Below are positions 17,898 to 46,702 of a DNA stretch of 64,000 nt, piece by piece. Position numbers and translations under genes: made by a program. Location of the stretch: IMG/VR virus record IMGVR_UViG_3300023174_000042, positions 1-64,000 of that record; one strand, 5' to 3'. This stretch comes from a virus. The stretch's first letter is position 1. Each line of letters begins with the position of its first letter. Below the pieces are notes generated by a model, which saw only the letters and a program-made list of their open reading frames with translations, had not been told where the DNA came from and did no database searches.

Positions 17898-18305
17898 TTA
17901 TTTTTTAATTTTTACAGTATCAACAGGAATTAAGGTTACTTTTGTAACACCTCTTTTAATAAAATTAAGTTTTTTAGCCGTTCCATAACTAAGATCAATA
18001 ATAAATTTTGAACTTTTTGGTAGTCTGTCATTAACTTTAACATAACATACTGAGTCGTTGTTTTGATTTACAACTTTTAGAATTGTTCCAAACTTAAAGT
18101 GTTTATGAGCGGCCGTTAAACTATCGGCATGAAATCTTTCACCTGAAGCAGTTAATCTTCCTGTCCAATGTTGTCCGTAATAAGATGCGGTTCCTTCGTA
18201 ATTATTTGGTGTTGATATAAAAGAAACAAAAAATAATGAAGTAATTAAGATAAGTTTATTTAAAATTCCAATTTTTGTATTTAGTTTCGATTTTTCTTTT
18301 TCCAT
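17898..18305 (-). CDS. RlpA-like double-psi beta-barrel protein
   Basis: 135 aa. An N-terminal signal/anchor (LNKLILITSLFFVSFIS) is followed by an RlpA-type double-psi beta-barrel: GTASYYGQHWTGRLTASGE, AAHKHFKFGTILKV, VKVNDRLPKSSKFIIDLS. RlpA proteins bind denuded peptidoglycan and some are lytic transglycosylases; the family's catalytic region is short here. It would act in the host envelope, possibly in cell-wall opening. Its start overlaps the end of the tagged metalloprotease-like gene by 50 bases. Confidence 0.8.
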   Translation of the reverse strand: MEKEKSKLNTKIGILNKLILITSLFFVSFISTPNNYEGTASYYGQHWTGRLTASGERFHADSLTAAHKHFKFGTILKVVNQNNDSVCYVKVNDRLPKSSKFIIDLSYGTAKKLNFIKRGVTKVTLIPVDTVKIKK

Positions 18306-19506
18306 ATTTTTTTTCCATAATTTGTTGGTGAAGATCCCAATTCTGTATTGATTCTGTCATTTCTTTATCATCTTCAGCCATATCATATAACTTGACAATT
18401 TTTTTAATCATTTTATTTGCAACATAATTAAATTTTTCAAATTCATCTTCAAAAAATTTAGTTGGGTTTTTTTGGTATTTAGTAGTTTGGTTTAAAAATT
18501 TTTGTCTAACTTCATTGGTTTTACCCAACTTTTCAACTTCCCCTTGTAATTCATTTGGTAATAACCCAATTTGAGCACCAAATTTTAACATATCATCCAT
18601 TCCGTGTTCAGTCATTCTAAAAAACATTTCCAGTCTGTTATTTACTAAATCAATATAAACAATTTCTAAAACTTTGTCAATTTTTTCTTTAATTGTCATA
18701 TCAGAAGGGTCTTCACCAATATGTTCTATAAGTTTGTCCATTCTTTCTTCTTGTTCTTTTAGATTTGAAATAAAATCTTCAAAAGTAAAATTTCTTATTT
18801 CTAATAATTCTTTATAAACTCTGTTATTTTCAATAAAGTCCTTGAATTGTGATTTAGTTATTTTTTTTCTTTTCAAAGAATATGCAACTTCAGTTGGTCT
18901 AACCAAATTTTCAATTCCATGAATAAAATACATATACCTGTAAAAGACGTTATCAATAACAGGTATTGCAAAAGTTCCTCTTTGTTGTGTTGCTTGATAT
19001 TTGGCGTCAGGTCCAACTTTACTAAATATATTAACTTGTTTATCGTATTTATGTTTTAATTCATGAGCCAAAGATGCTACTTGTTCGTCTCGTTCTTCTT
19101 CTAATTTTTCATATAATTGATGAGGTTCCCAATTTTCACCAACAGCAAAAGTTATTGTTAAATCTAAAGTGCCTGATGGTTCTATTTCTTTTAAAAATTT
19201 ATCTCGATTAAACGCAAATCTTCCACCCATAGCCATCGACGTTATATCTAAAACACCTTCTTCATTAGAAATTTCTTCTGTAACAATTTTTAAAGTATAA
19301 GAATTTAAAAAAACTTTTTTATTGTCTCCTATTACAAAAATAAATCTACCATCAAAATTATACTCGTCTTCTTTTGTTTTAATTGATTTTAATTTTTTTA
19401 AAACAAGGTCATATAATTTATCAGCAGCATTTAAGATGTTATCTGGAACTCCTAAAGCTTCAGTAATTAGTTTTAATTGATTTTTGGTGATGATAATATT
19501 TCCCAT
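18256..19506 (-). CDS. Tagged putative HExxH metalloprotease
   Basis: 416 aa. The N-terminus MGNIIITKNQLKLITEALG is the type-A tag, with L-I-T-E as the putative cleavage site after residue 16. At residues 148-152 HELKH matches the HExxH zinc-binding motif inside a helix (VASLAHELKHKYDKQ). A third ligand is not obvious. The C-terminal 200 residues are helical and charged. I infer a packaged protein delivered with DNA or used in entry; protease activity is a prediction. A late-type box lies 3 bases upstream of ATG. Confidence 0.65.
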   Translation of the reverse strand: MGNIIITKNQLKLITEALGVPDNILNAADKLYDLVLKKLKSIKTKEDEYNFDGRFIFVIGDNKKVFLNSYTLKIVTEEISNEEGVLDITSMAMGGRFAFNRDKFLKEIEPSGTLDLTITFAVGENWEPHQLYEKLEEERDEQVASLAHELKHKYDKQVNIFSKVGPDAKYQATQQRGTFAIPVIDNVFYRYMYFIHGIENLVRPTEVAYSLKRKKITKSQFKDFIENNRVYKELLEIRNFTFEDFISNLKEQEERMDKLIEHIGEDPSDMTIKEKIDKVLEIVYIDLVNNRLEMFFRMTEHGMDDMLKFGAQIGLLPNELQGEVEKLGKTNEVRQKFLNQTTKYQKNPTKFFEDEFEKFNYVANKMIKKIVKLYDMAEDDKEMTESIQNWDLHQQIMEKKYGKRKIETKYKNWNFK

Positions 19507-19510
19507 ATTA

Positions 19511-19520
19511 ATAAATATAA
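19511..19520 (-). promoter_or_regulatory. Late-type promoter box
   Basis: Coding-strand TTATATTTATT ends 3 bases before the ATG at 19506, one of the clearest members of the class. Confidence 0.6.
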
Positions 19521-19572
19521 CAAATAAAAAAACATAAACCTTAAACTACGTAAAAGGTTTAAATCATTTGTC

Positions 19573-19770
19573 TTAAATTATTATGACAGTTGTTGTTTGA
19601 ATAGGTATGTTTGTAACTGATGTTGCGGGCGGAGTTGCACCAACAACAGGTGGTTGGGGATTTCCTGTTACTTGTTCAGTTATCAAGTTCCATTCTTTAA
19701 TTTTTCTTGATTCGTGAAGATTTAAAATTCTATTTTTTTCCTCTTGACTTATTTGAAATCTTTTTTTTAT
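19573..19770 (-). CDS. Tagged small protein, apparently starting at ATA
   Basis: An open frame of 65 codons encodes ...KKRFQISQEEKNRILNLHESR..., then LITEQ and a Pro/Thr/Val-rich tail. The opening closely parallels the next tagged protein (FILTEEESKRILSLHN...FLNE), so it is a genuine member of the family. No ATG, GTG or TTG precedes the conserved part; ATA at 19770 is the only codon at the right position, 13 bases after the upstream stop. Either ATA initiates or the gene has lost its start. Confidence 0.5.
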   Translation of the reverse strand: MKKRFQISQEEKNRILNLHESRKIKEWNLITEQVTGNPQPPVVGATPPATSVTNIPIQTTTVIII

Positions 19771-19783
19771 TTTTTAAAAAAAA

Positions 19784-19993
19784 TTAGAATCTGTAAGATG
19801 TGTATTTTTCGATTGCCTTTTTTGTGTTTTCTCCAGCAATACCATCTTCAGTTAATCCAGCATTGAAACAAGAATTTAATTTTTTTTGAACTTGCATAAC
19901 TTGATCTGAAGTTTGTTCATTTAAAATTGAACTTTCGATTAAATTATTTTTTAATCTTTTATATTGGTCTTCGGTTAGTTTAATTTTACTCAT
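19784..19993 (-). CDS. Tagged peptidoglycan-binding domain protein
   Basis: 69 aa. Residues 1-28 are the tag (MSKIKLTEDQYKRLKNNLIE, then SSILNEQ, giving two (I/L)-x-E sites). Residues about 32-69 form a PG_binding_1 repeat: VMQVQKKLNSCFNAG, then DGIAGENTKKAIEKY. A capsid-type tag on a cell-wall-binding domain suggests delivery or a role at the virion-wall contact. Sits between other tagged genes with 14-base spacing. Confidence 0.75.
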   Translation of the reverse strand: MSKIKLTEDQYKRLKNNLIESSILNEQTSDQVMQVQKKLNSCFNAGLTEDGIAGENTKKAIEKYTSYRF

Positions 19994-20007
19994 GTTTATT
20001 TTTTTTA

Positions 20008-20832
20008 TTAAGCGATGAATGTTTGATATGCATCTTTAGTTATTGCTGGGCCAACTTCGGGTGTTGGTGCTCCTGTTGAAGTTCCTGCTGGTGTTGTTGT
20101 TTGTTGAGATGAACCAACAGTCTTACACTTAGATTCAATTTCTTTCATAATTGTATTAAAATCAAAGGTATATCTTGTTGATTTACTACCACCTTTTTTA
20201 GAAGTAGTTGTTTTTTTTACTTGATTTACTTGATTTACTTGATTTACTTGTTGTGTTTTTGGTGTTTTTGCCGCGACTTTTGCCAACTCTCTTGATTTTC
20301 TAACAGCAGTAAGTAATGGTTGATACACAAATTCGTTCCATTGTTCATCATCATCAAAATTTAGGTCTAAAAAATCAAACAATTTTCTACCTGGATGATT
20401 TTCAGCAAATCTTGTTGAAAGGGCACATAAATCAGGTATAGTTGGAATTGATTTAAGGGCTTTCTTAATTGCTTCTTCATTTGTGTTATATCCACCAACA
20501 CCTCCAGCATCCCATATTATTTTTACAAGTTTATCCAATACGTTTCCATTTAAAGTTTGTGGACCAACACCTTGAGCTTTACAAGCTTGGAAAATTTTTT
20601 TAACACCTTCGCTTGAACCATATGATTGACCCAATAATCCTAAAGAAGCTCCTATCACCGCTCCTGGAATACCATATAACTTGAATCCTAAAGCAGCACT
20701 TCCTACAACACCTGATGAAATTTGTTCGTTTAGATTGTTGTTATTTTTTTTCTCGTTTAAGAAAAATTCTTTATTATGAAGAGACAAAATTCTTTTTGAT
20801 TCTTCTTCTGTTAGTATAAAATTGTTTCTCAT
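20008..20832 (-). CDS. Tagged glycine-zipper protein
   Basis: 274 aa. The N-terminus MRNNFILTEEESKRILSLHN is a type-B tag, with EFFLNE and NNLNEQ as possible L-x-E sites. Residues about 42-72 form a Gly/Ala-rich hydrophobic segment (VVGSAALGFKLYGIPGAVIG) typical of glycine-zipper membrane-active regions. About residue 200 is a VNQ repeat encoded by a 9-base tandem repeat. The tail is Thr/Pro-rich. I infer an internal virion protein that may interact with membranes during genome entry. Confidence 0.65.
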   Translation of the reverse strand: MRNNFILTEEESKRILSLHNKEFFLNEKKNNNNLNEQISSGVVGSAALGFKLYGIPGAVIGASLGLLGQSYGSSEGVKKIFQACKAQGVGPQTLNGNVLDKLVKIIWDAGGVGGYNTNEEAIKKALKSIPTIPDLCALSTRFAENHPGRKLFDFLDLNFDDDEQWNEFVYQPLLTAVRKSRELAKVAAKTPKTQQVNQVNQVNQVKKTTTSKKGGSKSTRYTFDFNTIMKEIESKCKTVGSSQQTTTPAGTSTGAPTPEVGPAITKDAYQTFIA

Positions 20833-20846
20833 GAAATTATATTTTT

Positions 20847-20857
20847 AATATAAATAC
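20847..20857 (-). promoter_or_regulatory. Late-type promoter box
   Basis: Coding-strand GTATTTATATT, about 15 bases upstream of the ATG at 20832; heads the tagged gene run 20832 to 17898. Confidence 0.55.
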
Positions 20858-20869
20858 TATAAAAATAAA

Positions 20870-20899
20870 AAAAGGTGAAGTAATCTCCACCTTTTTTTG
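20870..20899. terminator. Bidirectional terminator with adjacent hairpin
   Basis: AGGTG (20873-20877) pairs with CACCT (20888-20892), flanked by T runs in both directions. Immediately upstream on the minus strand is a second hairpin GACAC-loop-GTGTC (20902-20918). It closes the lipoprotein gene. The extra hairpin may be part of a short RNA, but no convincing promoter was found. Confidence 0.65.
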
Positions 20900-20958
20900 G
20901 TCGACACCGAATGTGTCATCTTTCTCTCCACCACTTTGTTTTAAAGATAACAAAGAAA

Positions 20959-21393
20959 CTATTGTTTTACCATCCAAATTTTAACACTATTTTGTCCTGT
21001 AAAATAGTTTTTGAATTGACAATTTTCTATTAAACCTTGAATTAAATTGTAATCATAAATAGTTCCACTAATATGACCCCAAGGTGTGTTGTTTAATGTT
21101 AATGAATAACCAAAAACGTTTGGATATAAATTATATGTTGACTGAACACCATTAAAAGAATAAACAGTTTTTGAAACAAAAACAAGTGTGTCTGATCTTG
21201 TTTCTTGATTGAAACTTGTATTTAATATTTTTGTTATGACCCAAGTGGTGTTTTTTAAACTAATTGTTGAATCAACAGTGGTTGTGTCTGTGATAATAGG
21301 TTGTGGTGCCAATGGTTGTTGTGGTTTAATATCTTGTTTCACACAAGAAGTTATTGCCAAAATCAATAATAAAAGAAATGCCGCTTTTTTCAT
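20959..21393 (-). CDS. Putative lipoprotein
   Basis: 144 aa with a clear lipoprotein signal (MKKAAFLLLLILAITSC, cysteine at 17), a Pro/Gln/Thr linker, then a beta-rich domain (TTWVITKILNTSF... DTLVFVSKTVYSF) like small Bacteroidota lipocalin-type domains. Surface or periplasmic location in the host is expected. Phage lipoproteins often block superinfection, but nothing in the sequence proves this. Confidence 0.75.
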   Translation of the reverse strand: MKKAAFLLLLILAITSCVKQDIKPQQPLAPQPIITDTTTVDSTISLKNTTWVITKILNTSFNQETRSDTLVFVSKTVYSFNGVQSTYNLYPNVFGYSLTLNNTPWGHISGTIYDYNLIQGLIENCQFKNYFTGQNSVKIWMVKQ

Positions 21394-21394
21394 G

Positions 21395-21670
21395 TTATAC
21401 TAATGTTTCAATTTTATTTCTAATTTGTTCACTTAAAGTAACCTCAACAACGTTTGTTAAAATTACCGAATCTTTTAAGATTTTGAAAGGGATATGAACC
21501 AAAAAAGTGTTTCCATCATAATAAGATAGATCCTCATTAAGGTTCAAGGCCCCATCGACCATTTTTAAAAAGATTTTGAATTGCGTTGGATCAACAAACG
21601 ATTCGGTTAATAAATTTCCGAACTTTTCGTTCATTATTGTAATCTTGTGGTTGAATGTTGATTTAATCAT
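21395..21670 (-). CDS. Hypothetical protein
   Basis: 91 aa from the first ATG; an internal ATG at 21634 gives MNEKFGNLLTESF..., which looks like the proposed tag (LLTE) and may be the real start. The rest is alpha/beta (FKIFLKMVDGALNL, NTFLVHIPFKIL). A TATATTTG sequence lies at 21686-21693 but without a clear -33 element. It lies 1 base from the lipoprotein gene. Confidence 0.55.
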   Translation of the reverse strand: MIKSTFNHKITIMNEKFGNLLTESFVDPTQFKIFLKMVDGALNLNEDLSYYDGNTFLVHIPFKILKDSVILTNVVEVTLSEQIRNKIETLV

Positions 21671-21719
21671 TGTTGTTTATTTCTACAAATATAATAAAAA
21701 CTTTCAAATAAAAAAAGTT

Positions 21720-22133: not shown

Positions 22134-22134
22134 A

Positions 22135-25892: not shown

Positions 25893-27095
25893 TTAACTTG
25901 ATCTCATTACAAAATACCAATCACCATTTACCTGTGTTTCAAACATTTCTCCATCATAAGAGTTTAGTAAATGACCATAACCATCACTATTTACGACAAT
26001 ATCTGTAACCTCATCTAAATCAACAAAATCCATTATGAAATTTTTTTCATAACCGTAGTTTTTAATAAAATCATCTATGTCATCAACATATTCATTGACT
26101 CTATCGGCAACTTCTTGTTCAATCATATCTTCATCATAACCACCTTGTGGATCTTCTTTGATTTCTTCTATTGTTTCTTCTAACGTTTCTATTTTTTTTT
26201 CAATGTTTTCGTATTCTTCGTCAGACAATTCTTGATTTTTTAGTTTATTATTTAAGTTTTCTATAGTTTTTGTTAATTGATCCACTTGATGTTGTTGATT
26301 TACAGATAGTTGAAGTGGTATATCATAACTTTCGGGATCGTCTCTAATAATATCTTCATAAAAACTTTCTAACCAACTATTCCACTGTTCTCTATCAATT
26401 GCTTGATCCCACACCCAACTCATAAATGCCTCATAACCTAAGTCATCTACTATACTTTCAACATATTCTCTAGCGGCACTATCTAACTCATCTTGAGTAT
26501 AAACATCATATGTGTCTGGTTGTAAAGTATCATCACCTAACCATTCGTATTGTTTTCCACCGTAGTTTCCACGACCACTAGGATAAATAAAATACTTATC
26601 TTCTTCTATTTCTTCACCATTTTCATCTTCGTATAAAGTTGGGACTCCTTCTTCTACTAAAAATTCGTATAATGCTTCTGTTCTTTCAGATTCATCATCA
26701 CCGTTTTCAACATTCCATTCATCATCTTTTCTATATTCATCAAGTTCTGAAATTTTAGATTCTCGTTGTTTTTTTAGCTTTATTGTATTCATTGTTGATC
26801 CCCAATCACTAATGTATCGATCAACAGTAATACCATTAAGATGTGGGACGTTGGTTCCAGAAATATCTAATCTTCCCATAACTCTTACAATACCTGTAAG
26901 TGGTCCAACATTTTTGAAGTTTCTAAGATCTAAATCACCGTTAATTACAATACCTTTACCACGATATGGTTTAAGTTTTGAAATTCTTTCTGCTATTCCT
27001 CCAACATCTTCTAATGTTTCTAAATATTGTTCAGGAGTCAATGTTACAAGATTGTCATCTTGTTCCAACAAGAAATTTTTTATAAAATTTTTCAT
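25893..27095 (-). CDS. Tagged acidic putative virion protein
   Basis: 400 aa, highly acidic. The N-terminus MKNFIKNFLLEQ is a short amphipathic helix ending L-L-E, matching the tag. Residues about 45-90 look like pentapeptide or right-handed beta repeats (GIVINGDLDLRNFKNVG, VRVMGRLDIS). A coiled coil lies at about 270-320. The C-terminal domain ends in WYFVMRSS. A late-type box is 4 bases upstream. Confidence 0.6.
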   Translation of the reverse strand: MKNFIKNFLLEQDDNLVTLTPEQYLETLEDVGGIAERISKLKPYRGKGIVINGDLDLRNFKNVGPLTGIVRVMGRLDISGTNVPHLNGITVDRYISDWGSTMNTIKLKKQRESKISELDEYRKDDEWNVENGDDESERTEALYEFLVEEGVPTLYEDENGEEIEEDKYFIYPSGRGNYGGKQYEWLGDDTLQPDTYDVYTQDELDSAAREYVESIVDDLGYEAFMSWVWDQAIDREQWNSWLESFYEDIIRDDPESYDIPLQLSVNQQHQVDQLTKTIENLNNKLKNQELSDEEYENIEKKIETLEETIEEIKEDPQGGYDEDMIEQEVADRVNEYVDDIDDFIKNYGYEKNFIMDFVDLDEVTDIVVNSDGYGHLLNSYDGEMFETQVNGDWYFVMRSS

Positions 27096-27437: not shown

Positions 27438-28337
27438 ATGAACTCCCTTCACGAAGATATAAGAAGAATAAAAAAATTAATGAATCTACTTGAGGGCGAA
27501 CAACTCTATTTAGATTTAGATTTTGGCGAAAAGGACCAAAACAAAATTACAATTAATAGTCCTGAATTTAGTAAAGCGTTTAAAGAAAAAGTTTTTTTTA
27601 TATTAAAGGATATATACGGAAATACAAATTGGTCAAATCAAAAGGGTAAAGGAACAAGAGGTCGTGGTGGATTTGTAAATTTATACACTGTCTATGATTT
27701 AATGAAACAAAAAGGACTTGATGACTATGAAAAAGAAGGTGGTGATTGGTCAATAATAAATTATTTTGACACAAATCCACAAGTAAGAAAATATTTAGTA
27801 AATCTATGGAGAGCTGAGACTTCTAATGAATTGAAAAATGAAGAAAGTATTAAAGATTTTATTTTATGGATGTCAAGAAATAGAAATAAAATTTTCAAAG
27901 AAGGTCCTATACTTAAAAATTTGGTAGATTTGAATGCAACCTCTCTTTATAACGGAGAGCTAAATGAAAGAAAGGCTCACGAATATTTGTCAAAAGTTTT
28001 AAAAGAACTTCCTGATTGGGAACTTTTGAAAAGGTCTTTACCAGGTTCTACAAATGACAGAAAAGGTATTGACATCAAAATGAAAAATAAAAAAACAAAT
28101 AATGAGGCCGATTTTCAAGTAAAACCTTTATCAAACTTTGAAAAAACAAAAGATGGTTATTTGATTACTTCATATAATATAGTTGGTTTGAATGAAAAAC
28201 CTGTAGATTATTTTATATTTGCTTCTCACAATGTTGATGACGTATATATATTTAAAAATATAATAGGAAATTATGAAATTTTAAGCGATACAAAAGTTTT
28301 ATTTAAGGATAAACCTATAGAGTTTAAGTATTTATAA
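27438..28337 (+). CDS. Tagged putative nuclease-fold protein
   Basis: 299 aa. N-terminal tag MNSLHEDIRRIKKLMNLLEG with L-L-E as cleavage candidate. The C-terminal half resembles a restriction-endonuclease fold: helix with E177, then GIDI (D212) and a strand FQVKP (Q227, K229) spaced as in the PD-(D/E)xK superfamily with Gln in place of the acidic residue. Nuclease activity is a prediction; if packaged, it could cut host DNA on entry or process DNA in the head. First gene of a three-gene plus-strand unit. Confidence 0.55.
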   Translation: MNSLHEDIRRIKKLMNLLEGEQLYLDLDFGEKDQNKITINSPEFSKAFKEKVFFILKDIYGNTNWSNQKGKGTRGRGGFVNLYTVYDLMKQKGLDDYEKEGGDWSIINYFDTNPQVRKYLVNLWRAETSNELKNEESIKDFILWMSRNRNKIFKEGPILKNLVDLNATSLYNGELNERKAHEYLSKVLKELPDWELLKRSLPGSTNDRKGIDIKMKNKKTNNEADFQVKPLSNFEKTKDGYLITSYNIVGLNEKPVDYFIFASHNVDDVYIFKNIIGNYEILSDTKVLFKDKPIEFKYL

Positions 28338-32245: not shown

Positions 32246-33487
32246 TTAAATATCCAAATCACTCAAATCAACATCACCATAGTCCTCATCTTCGTCATCA
32301 TCATAACCCATCGCTTCTTTATAATCTTGTTCTTTAAGTTCTTTTACAATATCATCAACCATTTCTTGAATAAATCTTTCTCCTTGTGGATCACCTTTAA
32401 GAATCATTTTGGCAACTCTCATAAATTCTTCAGCATCAAGGGCGGAAAATCTCATGAAAAGATAATGTTGGATATGTTTTTTATCTTCATCAAATAACTC
32501 AAGTGGATATGTTGCTAAAAACTTTTCCCAAAATATCGGACCAAGTCTTGAATCCCAAATTTCAGCAGGAAGTGTGTCTTCAGCTTTCAATATCATTTCT
32601 TGTTGTCTTGGATCATCAGGAAGACCGTGTGTTCCAAATATTTCATAAACACCTTTAACAAGTTCATGAACAAGTAATGGAAATGTTACTGCTCTTGCCT
32701 TTACTGTTGGTGGATCAGTTTCTTCATCAACTTCTGATTGTCCCATTTGACCACCACCACCTCCGGCCATTCCTTCCATGTCAGGAAACAACCAATAAGC
32801 GTGTTCCATAAGAGACTGAGTTACAGCGTATAGATTCATTAATTGTGGATTGATATCATTAATTTCATCTCTTACAAGATTATACATATGACCACCTTTA
32901 AATGCCGCTCCTTGAATTAAGGAATTAATGAATCTTCTTTTTTCTCTTTCTAAATTAAAGTTTTCCATGTCTCCCATTAGTTCTTCCACTTCTTCTTCAC
33001 TTGGCATTTCAGATTCGCTTTGCATTCCTTCCGCTGCGCTCATGGGTTGCATAACAAGTTTTGCGTCAAATTGCATTGCTCCTTCAGGAATACCTAATTC
33101 GTTTTTGACCAATTCTACTGCTAAGTTTTCAAGTTCTTCTTTATTTTGAGATTGAATCATAATTACTCTTTGAAGTGCTTGTCCAACGGACATCATAAGT
33201 TGCATTAGAGCGTTTGGTCCTTGGATAGTTCTTGTATCTCCCATTGCCATTCTAACTTTTTCAACCGAATCCTTGAATCTTTTAGAAGATATTAACTCGA
33301 TAAAATCTTGGTCCATTTCTGGCATTGCAGGAAATTTATGATATGGTGTTTGTTTTCCTGTGATTTTTCTTTCGATATCCCCTGCCATTCTTTCAGGTCC
33401 TTCGTAGTCGATTGGGGCTTCCATAAGTCTTAGTAACTCTTTTTTGGTAATACCTTCGGTATATAATCTTTTTTTAATATTTTTCAT
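32246..33487 (-). CDS. Tagged large putative virion protein
   Basis: 413 aa. N-terminus MKNIKKRLYTEGITKKELL, then LMEAPIDYEG: two candidate cleavage sites (Y-T-E and L-M-E). The body is helical and Met/Gln-rich with an acidic C-terminus (GYDDDEDEDYGDVDLSD) and a Gly-rich loop (GMAGGGGGQMG). No enzyme motif. The size, the tag and the virion-gene neighbourhood suggest a structural or scaffold-like protein. Confidence 0.6.
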   Translation of the reverse strand: MKNIKKRLYTEGITKKELLRLMEAPIDYEGPERMAGDIERKITGKQTPYHKFPAMPEMDQDFIELISSKRFKDSVEKVRMAMGDTRTIQGPNALMQLMMSVGQALQRVIMIQSQNKEELENLAVELVKNELGIPEGAMQFDAKLVMQPMSAAEGMQSESEMPSEEEVEELMGDMENFNLEREKRRFINSLIQGAAFKGGHMYNLVRDEINDINPQLMNLYAVTQSLMEHAYWLFPDMEGMAGGGGGQMGQSEVDEETDPPTVKARAVTFPLLVHELVKGVYEIFGTHGLPDDPRQQEMILKAEDTLPAEIWDSRLGPIFWEKFLATYPLELFDEDKKHIQHYLFMRFSALDAEEFMRVAKMILKGDPQGERFIQEMVDDIVKELKEQDYKEAMGYDDDEDEDYGDVDLSDLDI

Positions 33488-33488: not shown

Positions 33489-33845
33489 TTATCTTATATT
33501 AATTCCAAGTTTATCAAAAGTTAACCAATCTGGCATTTCTTCTTTTCTTGCCTTGGGGTTTTTCTTTGGTCCTGGTTTTGGTCTATATGGAGTTCCGGGT
33601 TTATTTGGTTTTGTTGGTGTTTTAATTCCCGGTCTAACAGGTGTTTCAATTTCTCTGTTTTCAAAAGTTTCATCTTTAAGATAATTTAAATCCTCTTCTT
33701 CTTCATTCCACTCTTCATCCATTTCAATTTCTTCAAAATCCACATCTTCAGATTCAAATTGTTCTTGTTCAGAAATTACACGACCTCTATTGTAATTAAA
33801 AAGATATTTAATATCCTTTAATTCCTCGTTTAATTTATTTTTCAT
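33489..33845 (-). CDS. Tagged acidic/proline-rich protein
   Basis: 118 aa from ATG at 33845, chosen because a longer frame would start upstream of the late-type box. The tag-like N-terminus runs MKNKLNEELKDIKYLFNYNR, then VISEQ (I-S-E). An acidic segment follows, and a Pro/Lys/Gly-rich stretch (TPTKPNKPGTPYRPKPGP). The YNR segment also occurs at the C-terminus of the 554-aa tagged protein. Confidence 0.6.
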   Translation of the reverse strand: MKNKLNEELKDIKYLFNYNRGRVISEQEQFESEDVDFEEIEMDEEWNEEEEDLNYLKDETFENREIETPVRPGIKTPTKPNKPGTPYRPKPGPKKNPKARKEEMPDWLTFDKLGINIR

Positions 33846-34440: not shown

Positions 34441-35028
34441 TTAAATTTCTTTTAGATCAAGATCCACATCAATTGGTATTCCGTATTTTTCTAACTTTTT
34501 GTAAAAAAAGTCATAAACCTCACTTCTTAAATAAGCAAGAAGATCTCCAGTCTCATAATTACCCTGAGCCTCTAAATAAGCAGCTTCAATCGTATCATTT
34601 ACTTCTATTTCTCTATCAGTTCCTTCTTCATACATGTTGAAGTTCATTGTTCCTTGATCGTCAACATACACAAAAATATCAACTCCAAAATCTTCTCCTA
34701 ATCTACCAAACTGATTTACTTCAATAACCTTAATTCTTGTATCAAGATTACCCCAACTACTTTTCAGATCATATATTTTATCATCAATTTCATTTTTTAA
34801 TTTTTTAAATAGGTTATTAAAACCACCGTTGTATTCATACCAAATGGGTCTAATAAGTTGGAAGTCTTCGTTTGTATTTTTTCTAATGTCTGTAATGTCA
34901 TATATCACATCATCAAGATGTGGTTCTTCACCCATCTTTTTTTGTTTATTCCATACCGTATAGCAAAGTTTTCGAAGGTTATCTTCGGTTAATCTATTAT
35001 ATTGTTTTTCTGTAATTATTATTTTCAT
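34441..35028 (-). CDS. Tagged protein of the MKIIITE family
   Basis: 195 aa from ATG at 35028, which overlaps the upstream stop as TAATG (a second ATG two codons earlier is less likely). N-terminus MKIIITEKQYNRLTEDNLRK: tag with L-T-E. Acidic alpha/beta body with a repeated strand pattern (VDIFVYVDDQGTMNFNMYEE). Last of five consecutive tagged genes. Confidence 0.65.
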   Translation of the reverse strand: MKIIITEKQYNRLTEDNLRKLCYTVWNKQKKMGEEPHLDDVIYDITDIRKNTNEDFQLIRPIWYEYNGGFNNLFKKLKNEIDDKIYDLKSSWGNLDTRIKVIEVNQFGRLGEDFGVDIFVYVDDQGTMNFNMYEEGTDREIEVNDTIEAAYLEAQGNYETGDLLAYLRSEVYDFFYKKLEKYGIPIDVDLDLKEI

Positions 35029-35378
35029 TACCAATCTGTTCTTGGATTTTCGTTTATAACATTAAGTAATTTGAATTTGAAATTATTTTTCCCTAAATAG
35101 TTTTCCAAATTTAATTTTAAGTCCCACAAATAGTCACCAACATCAAATGTGTCAAAAATTGTATCTATATAAATAATTATTCCTAACTCAACAACATTAT
35201 CAGTCTTGTATGCCGTTACCACATCAATTTTTGTAATCGCTTCGTAATTATCCCCATATCCACCTTCATCATAATAATCTTCTTCTTTTATGTTATCAGC
35301 AATGTCTTTCCAAGCCATATCAACCGCATTTTGAAATGATATAGTTTTTAATTGTGATTCTGTTATTATTATTTTCAT
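35028..35378 (-). CDS. Tagged protein of the MKIIITE family
   Basis: 116 aa. N-terminus MKIIITESQLKTISFQNAVD. The body is alpha/beta with VVELGIIIYIDTIFDTFDV and a C-terminal KFKLLNVI strand, similar in layout to neighbours. The tag's final (I/L)-x-E is less clear here (only I-T-E at residues 5-7). Confidence 0.65.
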   Translation of the reverse strand: MKIIITESQLKTISFQNAVDMAWKDIADNIKEEDYYDEGGYGDNYEAITKIDVVTAYKTDNVVELGIIIYIDTIFDTFDVGDYLWDLKLNLENYLGKNNFKFKLLNVINENPRTDW

Positions 35379-35380: not shown

Positions 35381-35932
35381 CTAATAAATAGTAACCAAAG
35401 GAACCGTTACATAATATCCTGTAACAGGTAAAATTATTTCATTCATGCAATCTTGAACAACATCATTAACTTCTTCTTGGATTTCCCAACCTATATCTTC
35501 ATCCTCCAAAGCTTGATCTAAGGTTAGATGTCTTCCATCCTCCATAAGTGTTACGGAACCTCCAGGTAGAGTTTTTCCATATAGAAAAACATCATAATCT
35601 CTATATTCCATATTAGTGATTTCCCACTCAAAATCATAACCACCAACTAATCTTTCACTAAAATCTTTTGTTGAAAATTTCTTGTTTTTTAATGTATTTA
35701 TAAATTTTTTAACAAATGCCTCATCCCCAACTAATTCTTGAAATTCTGTTTGAGCGTGTAACTTATCGGTAAATTCGGTTATACCCCAAAATTCAAGTTC
35801 ATCTCTATCAAATCTAATTTTGTTACCTTTTTCTAACTCTTTTTTCCAATACTTAATAACCGCACCAATACCTTTATTTCGGTAAGATTCTTTAATAAGA
35901 CTATATTGTTTATTAGATATTATTACTTTCAT
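35381..35932 (-). CDS. Tagged protein of the MKIIITE family
   Basis: 183 aa. N-terminus MKVIISNKQYSLIKESYRNK with I-K-E as candidate site. Acidic alpha/beta body (DFEWEITNMEYRDYDVFLYG) and a hydrophobic C-terminus (PVTGYYVTVPLVTIY). Overlaps the next gene by 4 bases. Confidence 0.65.
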   Translation of the reverse strand: MKVIISNKQYSLIKESYRNKGIGAVIKYWKKELEKGNKIRFDRDELEFWGITEFTDKLHAQTEFQELVGDEAFVKKFINTLKNKKFSTKDFSERLVGGYDFEWEITNMEYRDYDVFLYGKTLPGGSVTLMEDGRHLTLDQALEDEDIGWEIQEEVNDVVQDCMNEIILPVTGYYVTVPLVTIY

Positions 35933-36255
35933 AATTCCGCTTTGATATATTTTACATCAACATTAAATTTATTTTCAAAAGAGTTTTTAATCATATCTAA
36001 CACTTTTTCTTTTTTGATTGGGAACCAAGATTCTAAGTTGTTTAAATATTTTTTTGATATCCACAATCTACCATCAGATTTATCATATTCAATAAACGGC
36101 TCGTTATCAATGTTCCAAACATTTCTCTTATCCCAAATAACAATATAATAATCAACATAAGAAGGTTCATTTTCATCTAAGGTATCATCTACGAGTGATT
36201 TAATAAAATCATTCAATAGTTTTTTTTTCTGTGATTCTGTAATTATTATTTTCAT
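35929..36255 (-). CDS. Tagged protein of the MKIIITE family
   Basis: 108 aa. N-terminus MKIIITESQKKKLLNDFIKS. The C-terminal half (LESWFPIKKEKVLDMIKNSF, then DVKYIKAEL) aligns by eye with the end of the adjacent 124-aa tagged protein, so the two are paralogs whose tags and bodies duplicated together. Confidence 0.65.
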   Translation of the reverse strand: MKIIITESQKKKLLNDFIKSLVDDTLDENEPSYVDYYIVIWDKRNVWNIDNEPFIEYDKSDGRLWISKKYLNNLESWFPIKKEKVLDMIKNSFENKFNVDVKYIKAEL

Positions 36256-36257: not shown

Positions 36258-36632
36258 CTATACAATATTAGCCCCACTTACCTCTTTTATTTCAATATCA
36301 GGAAAAAGTCCTTTGAAGTAATCATAAACTGCGTTTTTTAAGTGTCTTGACATTATATGAGAAGGTATATAATCTTCCATATCTCTATCTATTGAATAAT
36401 CGTAATATAGTGATTTTGATTCTTTTCTATACACAAATAAAGGTTCCCCGTTTTCGTTCATCAAATATATTGAGTTGTGAACCTCACCCCAACTTTTAAC
36501 ATCTTTAGAAATGGTCTTTAAAAACAACTTCTTATATTTTGGGTATTCATCCTCATACTTAGCATCAAAACGATCTCTTCTATAAGTTTCGTTGATTAAA
36601 TCAAGTTGATGTTGGGTTACAATGATTTTCAT
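36258..36632 (-). CDS. Tagged protein of the MKIIITE family
   Basis: 124 aa. N-terminus MKIIVTQHQLDLINETYRRD with I-N-E. The body has SLYYDYSIDRDMEDYIPSH and the end LKNAVYDYFKGLFPDIEIKE, similar to the neighbouring 108-aa protein. First gene of the five-gene tagged run, preceded by a late-type box 4 bases from ATG. Confidence 0.65.
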   Translation of the reverse strand: MKIIVTQHQLDLINETYRRDRFDAKYEDEYPKYKKLFLKTISKDVKSWGEVHNSIYLMNENGEPLFVYRKESKSLYYDYSIDRDMEDYIPSHIMSRHLKNAVYDYFKGLFPDIEIKEVSGANIV

Positions 36633-36710: not shown

Positions 36711-38093
36711 TTAACTATGTGTAAATAAGTTGAAGTCCTCATCTTCTTCAGCTCTTCTGAAAACAGAATCAGGTAGAACTCTTTTTGGATCAGATCCTCC
36801 TAAGTTTAAAACCATAAGGTTTGGCATATCACCAATACATTCAGGTAGTTTTTGTAAATCAGGATTATTAACTAATGATAGATATTGTAAATTTTGTAAA
36901 CCACAAATTGCTTCAGGTAAAGAAGCCACGCACCCAACAAAGTTAATTGCACTTAGATTTTTGAACCTACCGATGTCATTTGGAATATTAAGTGATAGTT
37001 TATCTTTTGAAGAATTTTTAAAGGTAAATCTTTGTAAAGATTGAGGTAAGGTCGCAAAAAACTCATCGAATCCATAAAGTGCGATAAACTTAGACGCCGA
37101 ATCACCTGGATAATCAATAACCACTTTTTCACCTTTCTCACCTGCTAATGACTTCATAAACTCAGGTTTGAAGAATTGTTTTAGACCTTCTTCGTTTGTA
37201 TTTAAAAATTCAATCAAATTGATTTGTCTATCATCAGCATCCATGAATTGATTATCAGGGAAGTGGAACTGATAACGATTTGCTGGAAGTCCTGAAACTT
37301 CACCAGTTTCTTTTCCATAAGATTTAAAAGATGTTGGTGTGTTTGGAATTACAACATATAAAGGTCCTTTAGCGATATATCTTTCAAACCAACTATATCC
37401 TGGTGATGAGGTGCACCAATTGGTTTCTCCTCTTCTTGCTTCATTATGAGATCCACCGTAGAAACATGCCGCTTCTTTTCCTAATGGCCCTGTGTTTGAT
37501 ATTTTAGCAACCGTCCAATCTTGACCTCTATAAACGATGTCAGCTCCAGGGTGAGCAAATGTCTGAGAAGCCTCTTTTTTCTCAGCGGCAGTTGCTTTAG
37601 TTTTTTCTAAACTGAAATCTTTAACTTGATCATATAAAGTCTCAGGAGTTAGTTTATTTATATCTCTAAACTCTTGAGGTAATCTATTTTTGAATCTTTC
37701 AAACTTTTGAAGGTTTGTCGTAACTTTATATAAGTCTTCCATGAAAAGGTCTTGAAATGACTTTAAAGCCGCCTTATATTGACCTGATTGTGGATCAGAA
37801 ATCATTAATGGGTGATCTGCTGGTAACTTAGGTGTAACAAAGTTTTTTAATAACCACTGAGCGTATTTTCCAATTTTAACCCTCTCCATTTGTTCAGGTT
37901 TAACATTATTAACGTCCATTCCGTCCGGAACTTTTGTTGTCGGATCTGCGGCGATAATTGTAAATAAAGTTTCGAAAGGCATTATACCTCTTTGACCTTT
38001 TTCTTTTGGTTTTACGAACTTATCAAATAATACTTGAAATCTTGAGCTTTCAACAATTAAATCTCTTAAAATGTTTGTAAATCTTAACGACAT
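36711..38093 (-). CDS. Tagged leucine-rich-repeat protein
   Basis: 460 aa. N-terminus MSLRFTNILRDLIVESSRFQ (tag, I-V-E). The middle has a phage-type domain: RRGETNWCTSSPGYSWFERY, GPLYVVIPN, RYQFHFPDNQFMDADDRQI, which I recall from other phages without a known role. Residues about 375-455 are leucine-rich repeats (LPEAICGLQNLQYLSLVNNP, LPECIGDMPNLMVLNLGG). Packaged LRR protein is the inference; target unknown. Confidence 0.7.
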   Translation of the reverse strand: MSLRFTNILRDLIVESSRFQVLFDKFVKPKEKGQRGIMPFETLFTIIAADPTTKVPDGMDVNNVKPEQMERVKIGKYAQWLLKNFVTPKLPADHPLMISDPQSGQYKAALKSFQDLFMEDLYKVTTNLQKFERFKNRLPQEFRDINKLTPETLYDQVKDFSLEKTKATAAEKKEASQTFAHPGADIVYRGQDWTVAKISNTGPLGKEAACFYGGSHNEARRGETNWCTSSPGYSWFERYIAKGPLYVVIPNTPTSFKSYGKETGEVSGLPANRYQFHFPDNQFMDADDRQINLIEFLNTNEEGLKQFFKPEFMKSLAGEKGEKVVIDYPGDSASKFIALYGFDEFFATLPQSLQRFTFKNSSKDKLSLNIPNDIGRFKNLSAINFVGCVASLPEAICGLQNLQYLSLVNNPDLQKLPECIGDMPNLMVLNLGGSDPKRVLPDSVFRRAEEDEDFNLFTHS

Positions 38094-42074: not shown

Positions 42075-42136
42075 TTTTTTTAAAAAATTATAGTTTATTT
42101 AGTATAAAATACTATTTGATCTTTAAATTGTAAAGA

Positions 42137-42604: not shown

Positions 42605-42651
42605 AGTAAAAAACTATGAAAAAATTATAAGTTAAGACCCAATAATGTAAA

Positions 42652-44316
42652 TTATTGAGTCTTTCTATTATAAGACATTAAACTATTGATTCTATCAAAT
42701 TCTTCATTAAGTTTTTCAACTTTTTTGAAGTCTTCAGACTCATCAACTTTATTTAAAATTGATTGTGCCGTTATTTTTCCTTTTTTTGACTTTAGTGAAC
42801 CTCTTTCAGTATGTTCTCCCGCTTGATCAACAGGTTGTGGTTGTCTTTTATAAGATGCGCTCATTTGTTCTTGGCCGTAAAAATTGTCTTTGTAGTTTTT
42901 AAAGAATTTTTCACCAACTTTACTTGGAACTACATTTCCTAATGCCTTTCCATCGTCATCAACTTGAGCATTTCCTGTTGTTCTGTGACCTTTCAAGTAT
43001 TTTTCAATATTTTCATCGTTAGGCTTAATTTCGTCGTAAACCAAGTTAGTTTGACCAGGATAAGAAAATGCGTCAAGGTATTCATCAACCGCATCAGATG
43101 GTGTATATTTTTTTCTATTACCTTTTTTTAATCCTCCATTTTCAGTTGGAAACTTTTGAGTTTCTTTCATTTCGTATTTAGATCCAGAATCTGAAGCCCC
43201 CTTCAAATAATCAGTCATTTTTTTAGCAACGCTTTTCAAATAATCGTCGTTTTCTTTTTTATCTGCCTTATGTGCTCTTTCGTATTCTCTATAACCTTTT
43301 GGTTCTTTAACTTTAAATTTTGTTTCTTCTTTAACCAATTTTTCTATAAGATCAATCAAGTCTGTTTCAGTAAAAAGAATAGTTTCATTAACTTTGGCTT
43401 TGCCCTTTCCTTTCCAACCTTGTTTTGCTCTTTTTGCGAAATAAAGTTGACTCATTTTTGTTCGATCTGCGTGTGAAACTTTTTTTCCTGATTCTTTGGT
43501 TCTATCGTTTTTATCTTTTTGTTTTTTAATAGCCGCGTTTAATTCTTCAATTGACATGTCAGAATATTCACCTGTATGTTCCACTTCAACATCTCCTTTC
43601 CACTTTTCAGTAACCTCATATTTTTTTCCATCAACTTCAAAAGAATCTTCTCCTCGTTTTTTTGCTTTTGCTAATGCCCCTGTAAATGCGTTACCTTCAT
43701 CAGTTTCTTGTTTTTCAAACTCAATTTCATAAAGTTGTTCCTCTTCGTTTTGATGTTTTCTTAACATTTTAAAATCTTCAGAATCTAATCTACCATTTTT
43801 ATTTTTGTCAAGTTTATATTGTTTTCCATATAATTTTTCCTTCATTTCATATGAAGAACCACATTCCATACATTCAGACTCATCGATTTCAAGTTCGTAT
43901 TCAAACTCCTCATCATCATGATCGTCAAATTTTCTTTTTGGACGGTTTTCCATTTTTTTAAATTTATCATCAAAAGAATGTTCGTAATTTCTATCTGAAA
44001 TAAGATCTTCCTTTTCTTTTCGAGACATTTTTGATAAATTTTTATTTCCGAATCTTGGGTGTCCGTCGTCCATACCACCTAACTCCATAACCTCACCACT
44101 ACCTTTCCATCCACACTCCATACATTCGCCTTCATACATTTCTCCACCACATTCACAAGTCTCCCCTTCTTGGACATAATCAAATGCTTCACCACTAGGG
44201 TTAAAAGGGACTTCTTTTTTGTAATTCAATTTATTTAAAATTGATTCACTTTTTTCTTTTATATTTTCTTGTAAAATTTTTTTAAATCTTGATACGATAT
44301 ATTGTTCTTTGTTCAT
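42652..44316 (-). CDS. Large tagged protein with zinc ribbons and EF-hand-like loop
   Basis: 554 aa. N-terminus MNKEQYIVSRFKKILQENIK (tag, L-Q-E). Two Cys clusters (CECGGEMYEGECMECGW near 52; CMECGSS near 148), an EF-hand-like loop DKNKNGRLDSEDF near 172-184, and charged low-complexity segments. An internal tag-like stretch TETDLIDLIEKLVKEE lies near residue 320 and a C-terminal one (LNEEFDRINSLMSYNRK). Several cleavage sites would make it a polyprotein-like precursor. A late-type box lies upstream. Confidence 0.65.
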   Translation of the reverse strand: MNKEQYIVSRFKKILQENIKEKSESILNKLNYKKEVPFNPSGEAFDYVQEGETCECGGEMYEGECMECGWKGSGEVMELGGMDDGHPRFGNKNLSKMSRKEKEDLISDRNYEHSFDDKFKKMENRPKRKFDDHDDEEFEYELEIDESECMECGSSYEMKEKLYGKQYKLDKNKNGRLDSEDFKMLRKHQNEEEQLYEIEFEKQETDEGNAFTGALAKAKKRGEDSFEVDGKKYEVTEKWKGDVEVEHTGEYSDMSIEELNAAIKKQKDKNDRTKESGKKVSHADRTKMSQLYFAKRAKQGWKGKGKAKVNETILFTETDLIDLIEKLVKEETKFKVKEPKGYREYERAHKADKKENDDYLKSVAKKMTDYLKGASDSGSKYEMKETQKFPTENGGLKKGNRKKYTPSDAVDEYLDAFSYPGQTNLVYDEIKPNDENIEKYLKGHRTTGNAQVDDDGKALGNVVPSKVGEKFFKNYKDNFYGQEQMSASYKRQPQPVDQAGEHTERGSLKSKKGKITAQSILNKVDESEDFKKVEKLNEEFDRINSLMSYNRKTQ

Positions 44317-44331
44317 TTTAAGTTGTTTTAT

Positions 44332-44340
44332 AATAAATAT
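44332..44340 (-). promoter_or_regulatory. Late-type promoter box
   Basis: Coding-strand GATATTTATTA, core at 44332-44340, about 15 bases before ATG 44316 and overlapping the gap after the upstream gene. Confidence 0.6.
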
Positions 44341-44342
44341 CT

Positions 44343-45095
44343 TTATCTTTGCGTTTTTACTATTTCTTCAAAAACAAGATCAGAAATATATTCTTTGTTT
44401 ATTTTATATTTAACAGAAACATTTTCTATCGCTTTTTGGACTTGTTCACTTTCAAAAATTTTCAAAGCGTTTATATCTCCCTGATTACAGTAGGGAAACT
44501 TTTTACACTTCTTTTTAACTTGAACTCTTTTGGATCCAGGCATGAACTTTGTTGTCGCACCCTTCCAATCTTTTTTACTGAGCGATTTTGCCCAAATTGC
44601 TGGTTGTGAATATTGTCCTGAAGATGCTGATGTTGTTGCTTCTTTTGTTTCAGCCTTTTTAAGTTCTGAGTCTTCAATATCTAAACTTTCCCTAACAGTT
44701 TTTATACCTTTTGTAATGTCTCCTTTTGTTGTAGAGAATAATGGCATAGAATATCCACCCGCAGATGCCGCTCCTGTTGATTCAGTATTTTCTTCTTTTT
44801 TGTTAGGTTTCTCGTCTAAAATTGATTGTAAAAATTTTTTTACATCTTCGGGGTTTTTTAAATAATTTTTTATTTTTGACTTTATTTGATTGTTTGAAAG
44901 TTTCTTGTTTGTTATTAATCGGTAAATCTCTATAATGTCGTTTTTATCTTTTAAGAAGTTTAAATATTTTTTTATTCTTTCTTCTTTAACTTCGGCTTTT
45001 TCGATACTTTTAATCACATTTCTTCTTAGCTCAGGTTCGCCAGCCAAAGCACTTGTCATGGCCGATTTTAATTTTTCTGTTACATTTGAGTCCAT
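44343..45095 (-). CDS. Conserved large-phage structural-type protein
   Basis: 250 aa. Helical N-terminal half; two similar Ser/Gly segments (AASAGGYSMPLFS; SASSGQYSQPAIWAKSLSKK) and the block VKKKCKKFPYCNQGDINAL. The GQYSxPAxWAK...KKCxxFPYCNQGDI pattern recurs in large Bacteroidota phages next to virion genes; I recall it without a proven role. Starts at TAATG with the downstream gene. Confidence 0.7.
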   Translation of the reverse strand: MDSNVTEKLKSAMTSALAGEPELRRNVIKSIEKAEVKEERIKKYLNFLKDKNDIIEIYRLITNKKLSNNQIKSKIKNYLKNPEDVKKFLQSILDEKPNKKEENTESTGAASAGGYSMPLFSTTKGDITKGIKTVRESLDIEDSELKKAETKEATTSASSGQYSQPAIWAKSLSKKDWKGATTKFMPGSKRVQVKKKCKKFPYCNQGDINALKIFESEQVQKAIENVSVKYKINKEYISDLVFEEIVKTQR

Positions 45096-45340
45096 TATAA
45101 ACTTTTAAATTTTTGTTCCCAAAATCCTCTCTGTTGATACATAACAGTAAAGTATTCTTGAAAAGATTTTATGACTATATCTTTTACGTCTTTTTTTAAT
45201 TCACCTTTTTGTAAATCTTGAGAAATTTTATCCAATAATTTTTTTTCAAATTGTTTAGATGTGTTTGAGTCAAAAAAATCTTTAATTTCTTTTCTGATCA
45301 ATACTTCAATTTCTTTTTTTTCTGTTGATGAAAGTGCCAT
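45095..45340 (-). CDS. Conserved small phage protein
   Basis: 81 aa: SSTEKKEIEVLIRKEIKDFF, FEKKLLDKISQDLQKGELKK and a C-terminal FQEYFTVMYQQRGFWEQ. Helical, charged; recurs in large phage virion clusters, as I recall. Coupled to both neighbours by single-base overlaps. Confidence 0.7.
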   Translation of the reverse strand: MALSSTEKKEIEVLIRKEIKDFFDSNTSKQFEKKLLDKISQDLQKGELKKDVKDIVIKSFQEYFTVMYQQRGFWEQKFKSL

Positions 45341-45768
45341 TATTTAAAAACCGCAATGTAAGTTAATGGAGCAATTATTACTGCCGAAATTATATTAAAT
45401 AAAACACCTTTGGTTTTAATTCTTTTGTTTTCCTTTTTTAAATCAAGATTTTCTTTTTCATAAATCTTAATTTTTTCATTTTTTTCTGAAATAATAATTC
45501 TGTTCAAGGAATCTTCTGACATCCATGATTTATTTTCTTTTTGAAGAAATAAGATTTTATTGTTTAACTCTAGTATTTCTTTTTTATCTAATTGGGACAA
45601 TTCTTTTAACTTATCGTAATCGTTAAGATCTATAAGTATTTTTTGGACCACGGAATATGGTATACACATTTTTGATGTGTCAGAATTTGAACTATTGTTT
45701 TTTTGGGAAAATACATTTAACCCAAATAAAATTATTACCAAAGTTGTAAATATTTTTTTCATGTTCAA
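45340..45768 (-). CDS. Spanin-like envelope protein (signal, coiled coil, C-terminal TM)
   Basis: 142 aa. N-terminal signal (MKKIFTTLVIILFGLNVFSQ), a Leu/Lys/Glu coiled coil at about 50-115, and a C-terminal hydrophobic segment (GVLFNIISAVIIAPLTYIAV). It lies next to another TM-coiled-coil protein and an amidase, as in spanin pairs, but the topology (TM at the C-terminus) is not the standard o-spanin lipoprotein. A lysis or envelope-spanning role is inferred. Confidence 0.55.
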   Translation of the reverse strand: MNMKKIFTTLVIILFGLNVFSQKNNSSNSDTSKMCIPYSVVQKILIDLNDYDKLKELSQLDKKEILELNNKILFLQKENKSWMSEDSLNRIIISEKNEKIKIYEKENLDLKKENKRIKTKGVLFNIISAVIIAPLTYIAVFK

Positions 45769-46118
45769 AAGTTATATTTTTTTCTTAATAAACTATCAAT
45801 TTTTTTCTTGTCAGCAGTTTTAATCTCTTCTTCTTTTATTGTATAATAATTATTAACCTGATTTTTTTCTACTTTTATGTTTGAAATTTTGGTGTCGATG
45901 TCTTTTATTTTTAATTTATATGATATTATTGAATCTTTAAGGTCACTTTGAAGTTTTTTTATTTCTTCGGTTTTTTTATCAATTTGTTCTAGTTTATATT
46001 TATTCAATTCACTATGATTGGGTATTGGTGTAAAAACACGAATTAATAAATACACAAAAATCACCCCTAAAATTGTAAGAGTGATTGTTTTCCAATTATG
46101 TGTTAAAAATTCTTTCAT
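45765..46118 (-). CDS. Spanin-like inner-membrane protein
   Basis: 117 aa. One N-terminal TM segment (WKTITLTILGVIFVYLLIRV), then a coiled coil (KTEEIKKLQSDLKDSIIS), as in Rz/i-spanins. Overlaps the next gene by 4 bases and the tagged gene by 4. With the amidase it suggests a lysis cassette. Confidence 0.6.
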   Translation of the reverse strand: MKEFLTHNWKTITLTILGVIFVYLLIRVFTPIPNHSELNKYKLEQIDKKTEEIKKLQSDLKDSIISYKLKIKDIDTKISNIKVEKNQVNNYYTIKEEEIKTADKKKIDSLLRKKYNF

Positions 46119-46702
46119 ACGTCTTCTTGTCTTGATGATACTATTTTACCCCATTTTGATTTAAATTTTTCGTAATAGGATTGTATTTTACCAATCATTT
46201 CTAAATATTGTTGATCTATTTTAACCATCTGTCCATTAACATAGATGCCATTAGGTTCATTAATTGTGTAAAAAAACTCCAAATTTAATTCTAAAATTTT
46301 TCCACTCCATTCAACATTGTCAGGAAAAACATTTAATTTGCCAAAATCAACCAACTCTGCAACTTGATTTCTAAACTCATCAACACTTTCAACAAAAGCA
46401 GTTTTTTCGTCTGTTGTTAATTGGGTATCGGCCTTTGTTTTCCCGTGTAATACGATGATGTTTCCTTGTATTCTAAACGCCTTTTGTTTGTCTCTTGGTG
46501 TTCCAATATCGTCAGAGTCTTTTGATTCTGAACTTTTTTCGGGGTCTTTTTTTGTATCGATGGTTAAATCAACCTCTTCTTCTTGTTCTAAAATTAGACC
46601 ATATTGTTTTCTGATTTCACTTTTGGAACTTTCGTTGATGTTGGCATTAAGAACTTTTCTTGATGCTTCAATCAATTTTTTTATTTCATCGTAATTATTC
46701 AT
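46115..46702 (-). CDS. Tagged protein inside the lysis region
   Basis: 195 aa. N-terminus MNNYDEIKKLIEASRKVLNA (I-E-A site), then a second tag-like RKQYGLILEQEEE (I-L-E). An acidic linker follows and an alpha/beta body (AFRIQGNIIVLHGKTKA... LELNLEFFYTIN). Starts 8 bases inside the amidase gene end. Virion protein is likely; enzymatic role unknown. Confidence 0.6.
   Translation of the reverse strand: MNNYDEIKKLIEASRKVLNANINESSKSEIRKQYGLILEQEEEVDLTIDTKKDPEKSSESKDSDDIGTPRDKQKAFRIQGNIIVLHGKTKADTQLTTDEKTAFVESVDEFRNQVAELVDFGKLNVFPDNVEWSGKILELNLEFFYTINEPNGIYVNGQMVKIDQQYLEMIGKIQSYYEKFKSKWGKIVSSRQEDV

Follow-up and report, generated by a model that had tools for sequence, protein, structure and literature searches.

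What leads proteins of unrelated sequence, encoded close together in one phage, to open with short and similar peptides? The question is raised by bases 1-64000, here called the window, of a 272,576-bp IMG/VR virus record (IMGVR_UViG_3300023174_000042), which is a T4-related jumbo phage. An earlier note on the window had proposed that one N-terminal peptide ending in (I/L)-x-E is shared by about 16 proteins and acts as a capsid-targeting tag that the prohead protease removes. Of the 17 positions listed there, 16 are genuine open reading frames (ORFs) that open as described, all on the minus strand except 27438; the remaining one, at 19770, has no start codon, and the peptides belong to at least five families rather than one. 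Judging from sequence, we consider it highly probable that these tags are capsid-targeting sequences (CTSs) that bring cell-wall hydrolases, putative metalloproteases, and unknown proteins into the head and are removed as the prohead matures. Cleavage after the tag is strongly supported by the sequences; packaging and injection of the tagged proteins we infer.

Tag families and the site at which they end

The rest of the record was fetched, and a simple codon-and-start model yielded 308 genes. Hidden Markov models (HMMs), seeded by hand from N-termini and iterated on four genomes, gave five families, typified by MKIIITESQ (family A), MKKIIRLTESDLxRIVKRVIKE (B), LIRxILKE (C), EEIxRIKxMMGL (D), and ISEEEKxRIL (E), with tags about 7-43 residues long. 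The models mark 47 of the 308 genes in the present genome and 263 proteins across 15 genomes or large contigs of the clade, some of the contigs being fragments. Hits in this set are N-terminal in 265 cases and elsewhere in 23, and there are none among 739 genes of two outgroups (534 of the 634-kb phage LR745206.1 and 205 of immuto_2-6A). Positions 18256-46702, once given as the extent of the phenomenon, do not bound it: most tagged genes lie outside, chiefly at genome 200-264 kb. We found no earlier description of these tags in open-access papers.

A site of the form (I/L)-x-E falls within residues 2-30 in 256 of the 263 tagged proteins, as the earlier note had observed for most of its examples, but this is weak evidence alone, given that 918/2234 untagged proteins (41%) and 562/1704 internal windows have one as well. 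A sharper comparison comes from family B, for which a degenerate DNA pattern covering the first 12 residues was run over IMG/VR; carriers were thus chosen without the site, and the test is not circular. Among the matches listed, all 89 B carriers have [ILVM]xE at residues 17-26, with the E exactly at residue 22 in 78, against 427/2234 untagged proteins (19%) and 339/2014 internal 10-mers. The bodies behind these 89 tags form 68 clusters, 56 of them singletons, which bears out the claim that the bodies differ. A tblastn search of cultured phages with the 23-residue B tag gave no match, the query being probably too short.

The same boundary appears in gene 32246-33487, which the models did not pick: a variable N-terminus is followed by [LIV]xE and then by APIDYEGPERM in 75/75 relatives with this anchor. 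The triplet before the anchor varies (LKE, LME, IME, VTE, LNE, ITE, LVE, LRE, INE), and in a 20-row alignment the invariant block starts at E23-A24. A general scan for conservation jumps did not pick out E when every type of residue was considered, so a focused comparison of tagged and untagged genes was adopted instead. Here an invariant [ILVM]xE at residues 5-45 was found in 22/28 tagged orthologue clusters versus 36/213 untagged ones (Fisher 9e-11), a test that is partly circular since the tag HMMs contain the E; control residues put in place of E score in 2-4 of 25 tagged clusters. In related phages, where the motif had been suggested as worth seeking, it thus recurs in hundreds of proteins, at the border between variable tag and conserved body.

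A T4-type protease and a proposed loading route

The gp21-like prohead protease that the earlier note had hoped to find is encoded in the genome (184046-184774): it is of the S77 type (PF03420, E 1e-22 to 1e-23, 81 bits vs a cut-off of 27) and also occurs in 6/7 relatives. The S80 profile PF20034 reaches 0.0046 and 16.6 bits, under its 23.4 cut-off, so that S77 is the clear match. Near its own N-terminus the protease also has an I-x-E in the relatives shown; the next residue is usually S (N or Q in two of them), and across 10 sequences the column is at least 90% invariant. The major capsid protein is of gp23 type (PF07068 Gp23, E 2.8e-73), and the motif is there too: its propeptide ends in LINE/A (a slash marks the presumed cut), invariant in 42/42 sequences with variable positions on either side, and matched to T4 E65 by eye, since the propeptide is not covered by any alignment. 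This type of site also ends the tags.

Capsid protein and protease lie among head genes at genome 180-192 kb, together with an acidic scaffold-like protein and, by inspection, portal- and terminase-like genes. Amid these genes and on the other strand lies a small ORF (genome 185344-185532, plus strand) that resembles ribosomal protein bS21 by eye, and for this reason the group is very probably, again by eye, that of the bS21-encoding freshwater Bacteroidetes jumbo phages of Chen et al. 2022 (PMC9723584). The hosts predicted in that paper are Bacteroidetes, and a term search of its text returned no passages on tags. Relatives are numerous, since a search of IMG/VR with the capsid protein matched at least 599 stretches.

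Cutting by gp21 after L/I-x-E and the N-terminal CTS, on which the proposal was built, are established in T4, where the first ten residues of IPIII suffice for packaging and Alt is processed at both ends (PMC9026906); T4 Ip1-3 are injected anti-restriction proteins (PMC12373910). In the present phage, the tag would, we suppose, dock its protein onto the scaffold or core of the growing prohead late in infection. The S77 protease would then cut after [I/L/V]-x-E, a step strongly supported by sequence, freeing the tag and leaving the body inside, and would use the same site on the capsid protein and probably on itself. By analogy with T4, DNA would next be packaged and the bodies injected with it at the following infection. 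Peptidoglycan (PG) hydrolases, putative metalloproteases, a DHH protein, leucine-rich repeat (LRR) proteins, and many unknowns would make a cargo well fitted to break through the envelope and disarm the host.

The likeness to the CTSs of T4 IPI-III and Alt thus covers the S77 gp21 family, the L/I-x-E rule, the gp23-type capsid propeptide, and a short N-terminal peptide on unrelated bodies; as in Alt, C-termini are involved too (PMC9026906). Whereas T4 has four cargo proteins and the CTS MKTYQEFIAE, here there are 47 or more genes and at least five dissimilar families, freely swapped and also found at C-termini. Different bodies under one leader, found by means of that leader, likewise recall the ip polymorphism of T-even phages, where Ip1-3 have their injected anti-restriction function and at least 10 Ips are reported (PMC12373910), compared with the 68 body clusters behind family B. 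The giant phages phiKZ, 201phi2-1, and SPN3US have many head-internal, ejected proteins that are processed by a protease cutting after E, as is proposed here; the phiKZ type uses an S80 protease and several propeptides of more than 100 residues (PMC5694885), unlike the S77 protease and short tags described here. DarB of phage P1 offers a further N-terminal capsid signal: residues from its N-terminus are enough to carry a reporter into the capsid, as shown for this one protein in a phage that appears to have no separate scaffold (PMC9024508). By these comparisons, the tags look like T4 capsid targeting in a new and greatly enlarged form.

The tag appears to be a module separate from the body, with families swapped between orthologues exactly at x-E/. 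The DHH-like genome gene 251189-252778 has a C-type start ending LLNE/SGIRG here and an A-type start ending IIKE/SGIRD in a relative, and minimal forms (MKKLIKE/, MNKLINE/, MSKLITE/) in others. Compared with orthologues in the clade genome G001, gene 25893-27095 has a C rather than a B tag (G001_53; junctions LLE/Q and IRE/Q), genome gene 248141-249637 a D tag rather than a doubled C-like start, and gene 32246-33487 an unclassified peptide rather than a B tag (G001_234). A second tag also occurs mid-protein in three single ORFs that look like two fused tagged proteins (G001 97421-98713, G001 117830-119101, and G008_266), and the protease would be expected to separate their halves.

Lineages have their own tag families. 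T4 ipII and ipIII, read from NC_000866, both start MKTYQEFIAE/A, and in the 634-642-kb phages LR745206.1 and LR756502.1 the DHH orthologue starts MISKYNQFINE/EVG or MLRKYGQFINE/EVG, while the homologue of 32246-33487 in LR745206.1 starts MKNFKDFMNE/EVS; these cargo tags resemble those of T4 IPII and IPIII. Since the same cargoes bear T4-like tags in those phages and other families here, the kind of tag appears to follow the phage lineage and not the cargo. The T4 CTS pattern [KRS]-[YF]-x-x-[FY]-[IML]-x-E has 12 N-terminal matches versus 3 elsewhere in the first 400 kb of LR745206.1 (634,780 bp), where at least 12 proteins with T4-like capsid-targeting starts make up a separate expanded suite; that phage also has a weak S77 match at 198525-198959.

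Tags are found at the other end of proteins as well. The D model has 37 N-terminal, 10 C-terminal, and 4 internal hits, and the C-terminal copies come after hydrophobic-x-E ([LA]xE), as in NLNE/EIVRIKKLMK at the end of an M23-like protein. Two proteins with C-terminal tags are M23 by Pfam, and protein G009_067 ends in a B tag. In the cultured Flavobacterium phage immuto_2-6A, two N-terminal tags (SEQFKRMQFLAGIITE and SEQFRRMQKLAGIITE) resemble the last residues of the scaffold-like protein (SEQVSRWQKLAGIIK), and the three matches to [KR][MWI][QK]xL[AM]G in called genes of 150 kb are those two tags and the scaffold's end. Two Flavobacterium D-like ORFs had no HMM match and were dropped from family D, being kept as a resemblance. 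Tentatively, and at odds that we put somewhat below even, the tags may imitate a docking helix that each lineage would have at the C-terminus of its core or scaffold proteins: cargo would gain a copy at either end behind a protease site, tags would co-evolve with the scaffold, and recombination would re-tag proteins. A lineage-specific candidate tag may be present in immuto_2-6A (NC_055915.1), where three of the ORFs 1803-2318, 103806-104354, 118632-118931, and 125241-125468 have a MENxFDLKKFLVE-like start and the fourth a similar one.

Tagged genes of the window and their presumed cargo

All tags in the window described below are on the minus strand except that of family D. Family A, by its HMM, heads gene 18256-19506 (tag MGNIIITKNQLKLITE/, 19459..19506), the 69-aa gene 19784-19993 (tag MSKIKLTEDQYKRLKNNLIE/S, 19934..19993; MSKIKLTESQYNKLKNNIVE/S in one orthologue), gene 35381-35932 (tag MKVIISNKQYSLIKE/S, 35888..35932; LxE or IxE/S in 4/4 orthologues), and gene 36258-36632 (tag MKIIVTQHQLDLINE/, 36588..36632; INE/N and IQE/E in orthologues). 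The first of these encodes 416 aa with an invariant HE[LI]KH and is a putative zinc metalloprotease; in 6/6 orthologues [IL]xE is followed by ALGVPD, and the invariant block starts at E16-A17. Its predicted structure (predicted local distance difference test, pLDDT, 66) is of low confidence in the tag region and matches no known fold significantly; the prediction for 32246-33487 has pLDDT 56, and no fold is claimed for either protein. An E tag opens gene 20008-20832 (20752..20832; LTE9 and LNE27; HMM E 1.2e-12), the C tag MKNFIKNFLLE/ opens gene 25893-27095 (27063..27095; HMM C), and the D tag MNSLHEDIRRIKKLMNLLE/G opens gene 27438-28337 on the plus strand (27438..27494; HMM D 1e-10). The family-E-like copy at 19573..19770 (IKKRFQISQEEKNRILNLHESRKIKEWNLITE/Q) has probably decayed, because it has no ATG, GTG, or TTG start (ATA where relatives have ATG) and its ORF is only ~65 codons.

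Six further N-termini fall below the HMM threshold and have sites that recur in orthologues. They are the propeptide MKNIKKRLYTEGITKKELLRLME/ of gene 32246-33487 (33419..33487), with the site kept in relatives; that of gene 33489-33845 (33768..33845), ending RVISE/Q, with [IVL]SE/Q kept in an orthologue cluster of 8 members; the C-like tag MSLRFTNILRDLIVE/S (38049..38093) of the LRR protein 36711-38093, with I[IV]E/[SN]S in the 4 orthologues whose N-terminus is complete; the propeptide of gene 46115-46702 (46586..46702), ending ILE/Q, with hydrophobic-x-E/[QA] kept in orthologues, short N-termini included; the C-like tag MDTLIERVIRQYLFE/ of gene 7706-8224 (8180..8224), with LLE/[ER] in 3 close orthologues; and the propeptide ending FKKILQE/N (44266..44316) of the 554-aa core-like protein 42652-44316, with [LIV]xE in 9/9 orthologues. 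The core-like protein also has an internal B-like motif (FTETDLIDLIEKLVKEE, 43324..43374), a weak HMM B match, and ends in a D-like helix, LNE/EFDRINSLMSYNRKTQ (42655..42711), which is kept in orthologues (best independent E-value, iE, 8e-4).

Pfam, PHROGs, and PADLOC name few of the tagged bodies. Those named by Pfam are lysozymes, LysM, PG-binding, DHH, SET, PAP2, and LRR proteins and M78 and M48 matches, with no replication proteins among them; such a cargo may fit opening of the envelope or early action in the host. Some hydrophobic bodies have tape-measure-like PHROGs matches, which we do not read as tail assignments, and single weak PADLOC and DDT/EspC matches were treated as noise.

Elsewhere on the minus strand of the window, a hypothetical protein (928-1749) has 5-6 near-identical VEDTIQNGVRHT-type repeats at ~20-residue spacing, and EVEKIVEVPVEVIKEVEKIVEVP repeats are common to two otherwise different genes (47292-48623, which has membrane segments, and 57270-58169). 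A secreted 1345-aa protein rich in S, T, N, and G (13697-17734) ends in a sequence that looks like the sorting domain of Bacteroidetes type IX secretion.

Alternatives, and what the tags may mean

Several points weigh against a cleaved capsid-targeting tag. The HMMs were seeded by hand, and the gene caller, starts included, was home-made. Tags of families A, B, and E hold an earlier I/L-T-E besides the distal site, and because there are two possible sites the exact cut is uncertain: the earlier one could replace or join the distal cut. The distal site is missing in gene 35028-35378 (tag MKIIITE/SQ, 35358..35378, HMM A) and missing or displaced (LDE28) in gene 35929-36255 (tag MKIIITE/SQ, 36235..36255, HMM A). 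The earlier note had called the copies at 35028 and 35378 weaker at the site, which is right for the second; that at 35028 has LTE15 (gene 34441-35028; tag MKIIITEKQYNRLTE/, 34984..35028; HMM A, with 7/7 orthologues in family A), and the one at 36255 had gone unflagged. The T4 CTS pattern has just 0-1 N-terminal matches per genome in the present clade, so that its tags would be T4 CTSs by logic and not by sequence. Lysozyme-like bodies could also be ordinary endolysins, and some of the tagged proteins might not be cargo at all but parts of the core that are destroyed. Finally, in open-access papers we found no virion proteomics for any phage of the group.

The alternative that survives best, unlikely but to be taken seriously, is that the tags do target the prohead and are cut, but that most tagged proteins are assembly or core components and not injected effectors. 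The core-like protein 42652-44316 and genome gene 182170-183693 have the same sites and C-terminal helices, and gene 32246-33487 is highly conserved, as expected of an assembly factor; however, many tagged genes are lineage-specific and are grouped in variable clusters at a distance from the head genes, and the tagged set includes the enzymes named above. We find it improbable that the tags stay uncleaved and have nothing to do with the head, acting as localization signals or docking helices (for a membrane, a replication site, or a shared partner) with the final E as a helix cap. Families C and D are amphipathic helices, and A, B, and E look on inspection like a strand plus a helix, as such signals might; yet the sites in the capsid protein and the protease agree with the x-E/ boundary, orthologue conservation begins at this boundary, a T4-type CTS substitutes for the tag on the same cargo, and copies occur on the tails of core proteins.

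It is scarcely credible that the shared N-termini serve, at the level of nucleotides, as a leader that raises translation, perhaps on ribosomes bearing phage bS21, which PMC9723584 ties to translation of phage transcripts and which this phage appears, by eye, to encode. A comparison of codons led us to reject this reading: for residues that two tags have in common, codons are identical in 61% of cases, versus the 51-55% that codon usage predicts, and identity over the 40 upstream bases is only 35-43%; tags also occur at C-termini. Since the choice among synonymous codons in tags is almost as free as codon usage would lead one to expect, selection acts on the tag peptide and not on the codons. 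Chance look-alikes, which AT-rich genes encoding many I, L, K, and E residues might produce and which would give (I/L)xE in about a third to 40% of windows, are refuted by the position specificity of the tags, the 89/89 result among the B matches listed, and the orthologue boundary test.

The proposal that this phage packages a suite of proteins by the logic of T4 is thus supported as far as sequence can tell, presence in the virion and an effector role in the host being predicted. If it is true, T4 capsid loading would extend from a handful of proteins to roughly fifty in each genome of an abundant, uncultured phage group, and a simple sequence rule would predict the proteins delivered at the start of infection. 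It would also provide a functional context for hundreds of hypothetical proteins and make the question of what a CTS binds directly testable, with the cultured Flavobacterium phage immuto_2-6A as an immediate test system.

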